Source: Spirochaetales bacterium (GTDB lineage Bacteria; Spirochaetota; Spirochaetia; DSM-2461). From it: DNA of 45,964 bases. Positions 33,824-37,005 of this stretch are shown one piece after another. A program made the translations under genes and the position numbers. Position 1 is the stretch's first letter. Each line of letters opens with the position of its first letter. The notes below the pieces were generated by a model that made no database searches, was not told the origin of the DNA, and saw nothing but the letters and a program-made list of their open reading frames with translations. The DNA is taken from positions 1-45,964 of the forward strand of contig JAFGXR010000067.1 in the NCBI GenBank assembly GCA_016936555.1, read 5' to 3'.

Positions 33824-34885
33824 TCAACTTTTAATCTTCTCCGTAACTTCTTTTACCAGCTGCGATTCCCCTTTGCGGCAGATCAGGATTTTTCCGTTCT
33901 CCACAACGACGATCAGGTTGCTCACTCCGCAGAACGCCACCTGGAGACCTTCTCCATAGACGAAGTTATTCTCCGCCTGAACGGATACAATGTTTTTCCC
34001 GCTCTTATCGATTTCGGAAATAACATCCCAGCTTCCCACATCATTCCAGTCGAATTCCGCCTCGGCCATAGCTATCTTCCGGCTTTTTTCCATCAACGCA
34101 TAGTCAATGGATATTTTTACAACCGAATCATAGACGGGCGTAATCGAATCGATATTTTCCAGAAAAGTCAGATCATTCGAAGTCCTGAAATGGGAATCCT
34201 GAAAATCGATTTTATCGAAAGGTTCAACAACTTCAGGAGTGTGCTCATTCAGCTCATCAAGGAAGAGAGAAACCGGATAGACGAACATACCGGAATTCCA
34301 GTAGAAATTTCCAGCGGCGACAAACTGCACAGCCCTTTTCAGATCCGGTTTTTCTTTAAAGGAAAGGACTTCCAGCCCGGGGTTGAAAGGCTCGCCGGCT
34401 TCGATATAGCCATATCCGGTTTCAGCGCTCAGTGGGGGAACTCCGAAGGGAACCAGCCTTTTTTTTTCCGCCAGCTGCGAGGCTTTCTCAACAGAGGCTT
34501 TAAACCCTTCTGAATCGTTAATGATATGATCCGCCGCCAGAACGATGACCGAGGATTTTGCCTCTCCTTTCCATCTGAGCCAGGCCGCAGCCAGCATCAG
34601 AGCCGGCGCCGTGTTTCTGGCGAAGGGTTCGGGGAGGATGACAATCCTCTTTCTCATCTCCCGGGGCAGTGTCGAGCACTCTTCCAGTGCCGGTACCAGA
34701 TGGTCCTTGTGGGTGACGATAATGACATACCCCCTGTGATTCAGGGCGAAACCTCTTTTAATTGTGGAGATGATAAGCGAATCCTCTCCGCCGATTTTCA
34801 TAAACTGCTTCGGGCGGGTTTCGGTCGAAGCCGGCCAGAGTCTCGTTCCAGCGCCGCCGGCCATAATTATAACGTGATCTATCAT
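33824..34885 (-). CDS. manC: mannose-1-phosphate guanylyltransferase
   Basis: 353 residues. Makes GDP-mannose from mannose-1-phosphate and GTP for surface glycans. The nucleotidyltransferase signature GGAGTRLWPASTETRPKQF is at residues 10-28. Also seen are VLAADHII (metal-binding), the sugar-binding GYGYIEAGEPF, VLSFKEKPD, NSGMFVYP and EFDWNDVGSWD. It is the short form without the phosphomannose isomerase domain. A Shine-Dalgarno AGAGGA lies 5 nt before the ATG. It stands alone on the minus strand; upstream on the same strand lies a possible sRNA gene whose terminator could also act as an attenuator. Confidence 0.93.
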   Translation of the reverse strand: MIDHVIIMAGGAGTRLWPASTETRPKQFMKIGGEDSLIISTIKRGFALNHRGYVIIVTHKDHLVPALEECSTLPREMRKRIVILPEPFARNTAPALMLAAAWLRWKGEAKSSVIVLAADHIINDSEGFKASVEKASQLAEKKRLVPFGVPPLSAETGYGYIEAGEPFNPGLEVLSFKEKPDLKRAVQFVAAGNFYWNSGMFVYPVSLFLDELNEHTPEVVEPFDKIDFQDSHFRTSNDLTFLENIDSITPVYDSVVKISIDYALMEKSRKIAMAEAEFDWNDVGSWDVISEIDKSGKNIVSVQAENNFVYGEGLQVAFCGVSNLIVVVENGKILICRKGESQLVKEVTEKIKS

Positions 34886-34960: not shown

Positions 34961-34988
34961 AGTATAACAAATATCGGATCATTTTAAA
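34961..34988 (-). promoter_or_regulatory. extended -10 promoter for manC
   Basis: Minus strand: TTTAAA (34988-34983), 16-nt spacer, TGT-TATACT with the -10 at 34966-34961. The TGn extension compensates for the weak -35. The leader to manC would be about 70 nt. Confidence 0.45.
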
Positions 34989-35028: not shown

Positions 35029-35060
35029 AAAAAAAAAAGTTCCGGCGGGGACCGGAACTT
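35029..35060 (-). terminator. orphan intrinsic terminator on the minus strand
   Basis: Minus strand: AAGTTCCGG, loop TCCCCG, CCGGAACTT, then a run of T residues (+ strand A tract 35029-35038). The 9-bp perfect stem with long T tract is a textbook terminator. No minus-strand protein gene lies upstream of it, since the next gene at 35221 is on the plus strand. Confidence 0.85.
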
Positions 35061-35114
35061 CGTATGACAGCAGGGGGATATTCGATTGGGAGGGGAAGTC
35101 TCCGCCCCGCTACA
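35029..35114 (-). ncRNA. putative small RNA, about 86 nt, from a sigma-28-type promoter
   Basis: Bounded by the promoter at 35147-35121 and the terminator at 35060-35029, both on the minus strand. The predicted RNA opens with GGGG that can pair with CCCC (35108-35105 with 35095-35092). It then has C-rich stretches CCCCUCCC and CCCCC likely to be single-stranded, and ends in the terminator hairpin. There is no ATG, so it is unlikely to encode a peptide. C-rich loops of this kind bind Shine-Dalgarno sequences in known sRNAs. Alternatively it is an attenuated leader of manC. The 335-nt gap 34886-35220 otherwise holds the manC promoter and the leader of the peptidase gene. Confidence 0.45.
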
Positions 35115-35120
35115 ATATTA

Positions 35121-35147
35121 CTATCGGCAATGAAATTTTCCGGTTTA
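35121..35147 (-). promoter_or_regulatory. sigma-28-type promoter
   Basis: Minus strand: TAAA (35147-35144), exactly 15 nt, GCCGATAG (35128-35121). This matches the FliA/SigD consensus TAAA-N15-GCCGATAA at all but the last base. It points toward the orphan terminator 60 nt downstream. Confidence 0.5.
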
Positions 35148-35220: not shown

Positions 35221-37005
35221 ATGACTATTCACGAAAGAATTTCAGCCCTCCGGATGAAAATGGAGGAGAAGGGGCTCCAGGCTTATATCATCCCCTCGGA
35301 AGATCCCCACGGATCGGAATATGTGGCCCCCTACTGGCAGTGCCGCAAGTGGATCTCCGGATTTACCGGGAGCGCCGCAACGGTTGTCGTCACCAAAGAT
35401 ACCGCCGGTTTGTGGACCGATTTCCGCTATTACATCCAGGCGGAGGACGAGCTGAAAGATTCGGGAATAGAATTATTCAAATACGGCATGCCCGGAGTCC
35501 CTTCCTATGAGCAGTGGCTCTCTGAAAATATCAGGAAAGGGGAGGCCGTCGGTCTTGATGGAAAAAACTATTCGGTTGAAGGAGCCGCGAAACTGGAAGC
35601 TCTTCTGGGGAAAGCGGGCATAAGGCTTGAAACGGAAGCTCCGCTGATCGACAGCATCTGGACCGAAAACCGCCCGGCTCTTCCCATGGGCAGGCTCTTT
35701 CTCCACGATGAGAAATACAACGGCAGAAGCCGGGCTGACAAGCTGAAAGCTCTGCGGGATGTCATGTCCCGATTCAACGCGACCCATCATGTGCTTTCCG
35801 CGCTGGAGGATATCTGCTGGCTCTTCAATATCCGGGGGCGGGATCTCGATACCATTCCCGTTGCCATTTCATACGCCATTATTACTATGGATAGCGCCGA
35901 GCTCTTTGTTCATGAGGAAAAAGCCGCGGATGTGAAAGAGGCTCTTAAAAAAGACCGTATATCAATCCGACCCTATGATGATATAGTAAAAGCTCTTTCC
36001 TCCATAGGTAAAGGATCTCTGGTTCTGGCCGATCGGGGCAAACTGAGTATCAGTCTTGTCAATTCTCTCGGGGCCGGCGCAGAAATCCGCTATGAAACGA
36101 ACCCGACGACAGCCATGAAAGCCCGGAAAAATGAAGTTGAAATCGAAAACCTGAGGAGAGTGATGGAGCGCGACGGCGCTGCCATGGTCCGCTTTATCAA
36201 ATGGATAGGTGAAAACAGCCTCAAAGGACAGACCGAGCTCTCTCTGGCTGCGAAACTGCTCTCCTTCAGAAAAAGGGGAGAGGACTTCGCCGGTGAAAGC
36301 TTTACGCCTATACCGGGCTACCGGGCCCACGGGGCTCTCTGTCATTACAGTGCCGATGAAGAAGGCCAGTTTTCGATTGATGAGATGGGGGGACTCTTTC
36401 TTATCGATTCGGGAGGACAGTACCCCGGCGGGACAACAGATATAACCAGGACCCTGACTCTGGGAAATCCGACAGCCCGGGAAATCCGCGACTACACGCT
36501 TGTTCTGAAAGGGCATATCGCCCTTTCGCTAGCCAGATTCCCCCAGGGAACGAGGGGCTATCAGCTCGATCTTCTGGCCAGAATGGATATGTGGCGGGAA
36601 GGCATCGACTACGGCCACGGAACCGGACACGGGGTCGGACATTATCTCAGCGTTCACGAGGGACCGATGCGGATCAGCACCCATCCCGTCGATGTGGCAC
36701 TGGAACCGGGAATGGTTATATCCAATGAACCGGGCATCTATCGGGAGGGCAGCCACGGAATCAGAATTGAAAATCTCATTCTGGTCCGGGAGGACCGGGA
36801 AACAGAGTTCGGCAAATTCTACGATTTTGAAACGCTGACGCTCTGTCCCTACGATCCGGAACTTATCGATCATTCTCTTCTGAATGATGATGAGCGCAGC
36901 TGGATAAACAAATATAATGAAGAAGTATACAACCGTGTCGCTCCCTATCTCGATGATGAGGAAAAGAGCTGGCTTAAAGGCAGGACGATTGAGTTCACAT
37001 TTTAA
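35221..37005 (+). CDS. Xaa-Pro aminopeptidase (long form, M24B)
   Basis: 594 residues. Releases N-terminal residues linked to proline, using two metal ions. Two creatinase-like N-terminal domains (about 1-300) precede the M24 pita-bread domain. Ligands are seen in LIDSGGQYPGGTTDITRT (two Asp), HGTGHGVGHYLSVHEG (His), NEPGIYREGSHG (Glu) and IRIENLI (Glu). The final 60 residues, including DDEERSW- and EKSWLKG-like stretches, match the long form similar to eukaryotic XPNPEP1, rather than the 440-residue E. coli PepP. No signal peptide, so cytoplasmic. A Shine-Dalgarno AGAGG lies 8 nt upstream. It overlaps the transporter gene by 17 nt. Confidence 0.92.
   Translation: MTIHERISALRMKMEEKGLQAYIIPSEDPHGSEYVAPYWQCRKWISGFTGSAATVVVTKDTAGLWTDFRYYIQAEDELKDSGIELFKYGMPGVPSYEQWLSENIRKGEAVGLDGKNYSVEGAAKLEALLGKAGIRLETEAPLIDSIWTENRPALPMGRLFLHDEKYNGRSRADKLKALRDVMSRFNATHHVLSALEDICWLFNIRGRDLDTIPVAISYAIITMDSAELFVHEEKAADVKEALKKDRISIRPYDDIVKALSSIGKGSLVLADRGKLSISLVNSLGAGAEIRYETNPTTAMKARKNEVEIENLRRVMERDGAAMVRFIKWIGENSLKGQTELSLAAKLLSFRKRGEDFAGESFTPIPGYRAHGALCHYSADEEGQFSIDEMGGLFLIDSGGQYPGGTTDITRTLTLGNPTAREIRDYTLVLKGHIALSLARFPQGTRGYQLDLLARMDMWREGIDYGHGTGHGVGHYLSVHEGPMRISTHPVDVALEPGMVISNEPGIYREGSHGIRIENLILVREDRETEFGKFYDFETLTLCPYDPELIDHSLLNDDERSWINKYNEEVYNRVAPYLDDEEKSWLKGRTIEFTF

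Follow-up and report, generated by a model that had tools for sequence, protein, structure and literature searches.

A predicted sigma28-dependent small RNA family of Spirochaetota with a conserved loop complementary to the fliF and ftsZ ribosome-binding sites

Sequence comparison identifies a small RNA gene in the genome of a Spirochaetales bacterium as a genuine member of a previously unrecorded family found across motile spirochaetes; its expression is inferred. The gene lies in the window that we analyzed, a stretch of 45,964 nucleotides. The comparisons establish that the family exists, has a defined structure and promoter, is linked to FliA (sigma28), and shows a conserved complementarity between its loop and the starts of fliF and ftsZ. 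Our main reading is that a sigma28-induced RNA prevents the translation of fliF, of ftsZ, and, in the window's own genome, of fliO. We regard this as likely (probability of about 0.78), with expression, pairing in vivo, repression, and physiological purpose all inferred.

The gene is on the minus strand and stands alone between manC (33824 to 34885, minus strand) and a peptidase M24/aminopeptidase P gene (35221 to 37005, plus strand), so it lacks the origin from an untranslated region (UTR) that marks enteric sigma28-dependent small RNAs. Its sigma28-type promoter, read on the minus strand from 35147 to 35121, is TAAA-N15-GCCGATAG, with the −35 element TAAA at 35144 to 35147 and the −10 element at 35121 to 35128. 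The predicted RNA of ~86 nt (35029 to 35114, minus strand) has a 5′ end near 35114 that is inferred from promoter spacing. It comprises hairpin 1 (35067 to 35114, minus strand), a stem supported by folds and family covariation that presents a C-rich loop, and an intrinsic terminator (35061 to 35036, minus strand) with 11 pairs, a 4-nt loop, and a run of ten T at 35038 to 35029. The RNA contains no AUG or GUG, and its single UUG is followed directly by a stop codon, leaving no real open reading frame (ORF). On the basis of loop conservation and pairing, the apical-loop seed is UUCCCCUCCCA (35097 to 35087, minus strand), the complement of the fliF, ftsZ, and fliO ribosome-binding sites. Within it are CCCCUCCC and the invariant apical loop of the family, CCCCUCCCA (35095 to 35087, minus strand). 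A sigma70-like site is present at 34988 to 34961, between the terminator and manC. No Rfam 15 family reached its gathering cutoff in the window, and 20 family loci gave only tRNAs; matches at a relaxed threshold were chance only.

A preliminary description, made without database searches, had proposed a minus-strand TAAA-N15 promoter, a textbook terminator, and about 86 nt without an ORF between them, and each of these claims held. It had also named two C-rich stretches; both CCCCUCCC and CCCCC are present, but among the C-rich stretches conservation in the family is limited to CCCCUCCCA and does not extend to CCCCC or the terminator loop. Its argument that a chance match to the promoter pattern was unlikely failed: TAAA-N15-GCCGATA occurs 2 times in the 4.7-Mb genome versus 10 times for the reversed control pattern, and the promoter string alone was dropped as evidence. 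The locus rises above chance because promoter, core, and terminator are conserved together in a sister genome and because the family is phylum-wide. Its proposal of a new small RNA is supported by comparative evidence, which extends it to a phylum-wide family with the window RNA as one of two copies in the genome.

Within the genus, the window region matches genome G002 at 89% and genome G001 at 82%, in both cases at the same place upstream of manC. The sequence GGAGACTTCCCCTCCCAATCGAAT is identical in the window's own genome (G000), G001, and G002, and folds indicate that the surrounding stem varies yet stays paired in all three. The −10 sequence GCCGATA is kept in G001 and G002, and the −35 element is kept in G002 as CCTAAACCGG (the family form is TAAAG or TTAAG); in G001, a contig end just upstream leaves only the −10 element recognizable. 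The stretch from the terminator to manC is not conserved among the three genomes, and in G003 the window copy is missing or in a gap. The second match to the family model in the own genome (C64:49088-49180; L202:2089-2181) has the loop and stem of the common family form, was found in 4/4 genus genomes, and is downstream of a gene that, from reading of its translation, we take to encode a LysM/M23-like peptidase, with a similar neighbor at the copy (L203) in G099, a genome that we take to be Treponema pallidum, the syphilis bacterium. For these three reasons we interpret the window copy as a younger, genus-level duplicate and the copy beside the LysM/M23 peptidase gene as ancestral.

The covariance search for homologues suggested in the preliminary description was run in two stages. 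A first model (R1), built from three genus sequences, detected L102, a relative from another family that is preceded by a sigma28-like promoter of its own; the other weak matches of R1 were ordinary terminators. A near-match to the core in G009 showed neither hairpin nor promoter, and a BLAST match in G021 fell within a coding gene and was due to chance. When 393 Spirochaetota genomes were searched with a pattern that joined the −10 element, the core, and the T-run, 54 genomes matched, with few matches for the reversed control. Three genus sequences and 17 pattern matches were aligned with MAFFT (A5) to give a 20-sequence model (R2), which found the family in 139/393 genomes. In 1.2 Mb of sequence (the window plus the T. 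pallidum-like genome), R2 matched only the two expected places at an E value of <5, and its sole window match was at 35032 to 35120 (minus strand). The score of that match (60.9 bits; E value, 7e-11) is not independent evidence, the window sequence being among the 20 used for training.

Across 63 members, 94.6% of cells were paired, compared with 70.7% after shuffling, and in the terminator (helix 3 of the family model) 99.8% were. All 17 modeled pairs changed on both sides (17/17), and covariation was 0.676, compared with 0.220 after shuffling and at most 0.143 in slid controls. The 63-member alignment was fitted to the structure; the MAFFT-made A5 agrees with it. The sequence CCCCUCCC is intact in 62/63 members, and the next base is A in 61. 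Both members seen in genus g111 (L189 in G594 and L190 in G291) carry a shortened loop, UUCCCUCCC; a matching target change would read UGGGAGGGAA and would constitute a natural compensatory change. Outside the class, three members (L222 in G397, L223 in G401, and L230 in G413) have the same loop on longer or branched hairpins, and that in G397 has an extra hairpin inserted directly after the seed. Many members (e.g., L165, L167, L233, and L241) show an inverted repeat formed by the −10 sequence CCGATA and the first stem bases TATCGG or TGTCGG, with a spacing of ~7 to 9 nt; it is possible that this repeat is an operator, or it could be a by-product of the stem sequence. In the T. pallidum-like genome, the predicted RNA (C1:775184-775267, minus strand) is 2.3 kb from fliA; small RNAs are not discussed in a published transcriptome paper on T. 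pallidum. The open-licence papers surveyed for the loop motif contained no indication of a bacterial RNA of this kind, nor was any sigma28-dependent RNA described for spirochaetes in the open-licence literature searched.

Transcription by sigma28 is inferred, in the absence of expression data, from the agreement of promoter sequence and FliA presence. Because R2 excludes the promoter, the promoter could be tested on the 38 matches outside the training set: all 38 scored ≥8/10 for TAAR-N14-18-CCGATA, compared with 7.6% of control positions, and 87% scored ≥9/10, compared with 0.3%. FliA was sought as TIGR02479 in the same 393 genomes, with class tallies counted by hand, and is present in the window's own genome. 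Of the 215 genomes in the class, 142 match FliA strongly and 73 do not. The RNA was found in 125/142 FliA-positive genomes, and four more (G318, G330, G334, and G338) had the exact motif by pattern search; among the 73 others, two lone drafts had it (G382 and G580). In the R2 search, the RNA was found in 0/71 genomes of two FliA-less families, f9 (35 genomes) and f20 (36 genomes of 0.9 to 1.9 Mb), the latter of which we take to be most likely Borreliaceae, given the missing sigma28 (cf. PMC11607428). These are two family-level absences rather than 71 independent events, and the co-occurrence with FliA rests mainly on them.

The preliminary description had suggested that the C-rich stretches could pair with Shine-Dalgarno sites and that targets be predicted at ribosome sites. 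That prediction was run and supports the suggestion, revealing fliF and ftsZ sites complementary to the loop and narrowing the likely targets to fliF, ftsZ, and, in the own genome, fliO. Long imperfect complements of the loop showed no excess over the control in four genus genomes, and targets were therefore sought by the invariant core near start codons. The core complement UGGGAGGGG occurred 1 to 9 nt before ATG 50 times in six genomes, versus 10 for the reversed control, and nine times in the own genome, versus 0. The only own-genome gene starts carrying it were those of ftsZ, fliF, and carB; the sites kept within the genus and beyond were those of ftsZ and fliF, with FtsZ and FliF confirmed by Pfam.

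Start sites of ftsZ were read in 29 genomes, 25 with and 4 without FliA, and counted by hand. GGG[AG]GGGG lay just 5′ of the ftsZ start in 17/25 FliA-positive genomes, with 7/8 nt matching in seven and 6/8 in one, and the 8-nt site was found before ftsZ in 0/4 FliA-less genomes. For fliF, the perfect 8-mer was present in 16/20 FliA-positive genomes (7/8 in two and 6/8 in two), and a FliA-less genome that bears fliF (G044) has an ordinary AAGGAG before it. Other genes in the same regions had an 8-nt site in 8/312 cases (Fisher's test, 4e-18 for fliF and 6e-17 for ftsZ); the scoring of these controls was lenient and took in every early start codon. Since the target genomes are related, the Fisher values overstate independence. 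Several of the eight control genes with a site are flagellar or envelope genes: fliO, identified by Pfam, and genes that, from their translations, we take to be fliI-like and murF-like. Some lineages (G314, G049, G374, G083, and G365) have only partial sites, with pairing of ~8 bp or less. Part of the match is expected, because GGGAGGGG overlaps the normal Shine-Dalgarno core. GGGAGGGG replaces the usual AAGGAGG, and we read it as selected for pairing with the RNA because it is a worse match to the anti-Shine-Dalgarno end of the ribosome, a perfect match to the RNA, and absent from tested genomes where sigma28 is absent.

In the own genome, the ftsZ site is AAUGGGAGGGGAUAUG, and the loop has an 11-nt match at fliO, which starts with TTG. 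Predicted pairing of the window loop extends over 12 bp with both fliF and fliO (−23.7 kcal/mol) and over 10 bp with ftsZ (−22.0 kcal/mol), against shuffled-loop means near −13 kcal/mol. Some shuffled loops equal the ftsZ value, so energy alone is weak evidence and the argument rests on conservation. In the T. pallidum-like genome, which was read nearly in full, the start of ftsZ alone has the perfect 11-nt complement, UGGGAGGGGAA, as its Shine-Dalgarno site. Poly-G tracts that precede certain T. pallidum genes make a wobble match to GGGGGGGG, not the 11-nt site, and were not taken as targets. As separate observations, an in-frame ATG lies inside the predicted Shine-Dalgarno site of the own-genome ftsZ (ATGGGAGGGGATATG; L362:1840-1854), and automatic annotation may set the start four codons early and mask the site. 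Two genus genomes have UGGGAGGGGAA before the start of carB, which encodes the carbamoyl-phosphate synthase large chain (L363, G000 C64:36050, minus strand; L370, G002), and in G000 the distance between this gene and the ancestral copy of the RNA is 13 kb.

In the mechanism that we propose, RNA polymerase with sigma28 would transcribe the stand-alone gene, and the ~86-nt product would fold into one hairpin and the terminator. The apical loop UUCCCCUCCCA would then pair with UGGGAGGGGA at the Shine-Dalgarno sites of fliF, ftsZ, and, in the own genome, fliO, and so block ribosome entry on these mRNAs; with the loop of the window duplicate, the duplexes formed on fliF and fliO would grow to about 12 bp. 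FliF forms the M-ring, an early flagellar structure, FtsZ forms the division ring, and FliO belongs to the export apparatus. In model flagellar cascades, FliA becomes active after completion of the hook-basal body (PMC11607428). Active FliA would thus signal a complete hook-basal body, and the RNA may stop new basal bodies and delay division, so that late flagellar genes would feed back on early ones and flagellum building would be linked to division. A bolder reading, toward which we lean with some reserve, is that one sigma28-induced RNA, in much of Spirochaetota including Treponema, uses its invariant loop to shut the fliF and ftsZ sites together, so that a finished periplasmic flagellum would stop new basal bodies and delay division, and that lineages without sigma28 have lost both the RNA and the target sites.

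Four other explanations deserve consideration. The RNA could be real, sigma28 dependent, and paired at the fliF and ftsZ sites but activate or stabilize the mRNAs, as the sigma28-dependent MotR and UhpU of Escherichia coli raise target levels (PMC10578931). We think this unlikely, because those RNAs pair inside coding sequences, whereas the spirochaete site covers the Shine-Dalgarno core a few nucleotides before the start, where occlusion is expected, as for DinR and DicF on ftsZ (PMC10907235). Alternatively, the C-rich loop, which contains CCUCC, the core of the 16S anti-Shine-Dalgarno sequence, might mimic that sequence in a general way or bind a protein; a highly conserved loop on a variable stem is also compatible with a protein-binding site. 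The fliF and ftsZ matches would then be incidental. This too seems improbable: the match extends beyond the anti-Shine-Dalgarno core (GGGAGGGG, not AAGGAGG), fliF and ftsZ are enriched relative to the other genes, and none of the FliA-less genomes tested has the site. Still less plausible is a decaying duplicate in the window with only the ancestral copy working; the copy is confined to the genus and has hairpin mismatches that most family hairpins lack, but its core is identical and its stem still pairs in the three genus genomes, and its promoter and terminator are intact. A manC leader or attenuator, with the terminator deciding readthrough, is suggested by the upstream position and shared strand relative to manC in G000, G001, and G002 but is practically ruled out by the second own-genome copy and the G099 copy, which lie beside genes other than manC and leave no conserved association with the downstream gene, and by the unconserved sequence between terminator and manC.

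Translational block by a sigma28-induced RNA remains our preferred reading, and it addresses the open question of what determines how many periplasmic flagella a spirochaete makes and how flagellar growth is coordinated with division. If true, this would in our judgment be among the most deeply conserved small RNA-target pairs outside Proteobacteria and Firmicutes. It would provide a likely regulatory RNA and two targets for the apparent T. pallidum, an organism that is difficult to manipulate genetically and for which predictions from sequence are therefore of value, and the promoter, structure, seed, and two targets are each directly testable.

Known systems resemble parts of this arrangement. 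CJnc170 (FlmR) of Campylobacter jejuni is likewise a FliA-dependent RNA, and its overexpression lowers flagellar length and motility, but it belongs to another phylum, and fixed pairing at fliF or ftsZ starts is not described in the abstract (PMC11187230). MotR, FliX, UhpU, and FlgO of E. coli share a sigma28 promoter and feedback on flagellar genes; they are, however, UTR derived, and their pairing sites in fliC and the S10 operon lie mostly within coding regions (PMC10578931). The text of that paper does not mention fliF or ftsZ, and the spirochaete gene is intergenic with a ribosome-binding site as its pairing site. DicF of E. coli and DinR of Klebsiella pneumoniae (PMC10907235) occupy the ftsZ ribosome-binding site, with repression shown for DinR. 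The spirochaete RNA likewise has a complement over the ftsZ Shine-Dalgarno site, and its repression of ftsZ in vivo is inferred; unlike it, DicF and DinR are prophage or SOS controlled, processed, narrow in range, and without a tie to motility, in contrast to a sigma28-type promoter and phylum-wide distribution. RsaE/RoxS of Gram-positive bacteria have an unpaired C-rich motif aimed at Shine-Dalgarno sites; the regulon differs, and the spirochaete RNA has no Rfam match at the gathering cutoff. In our judgment, the spirochaete RNA resembles a cross between the FliA-dependent flagellar RNAs and the ftsZ-blocking RNAs and belongs to none of these families.
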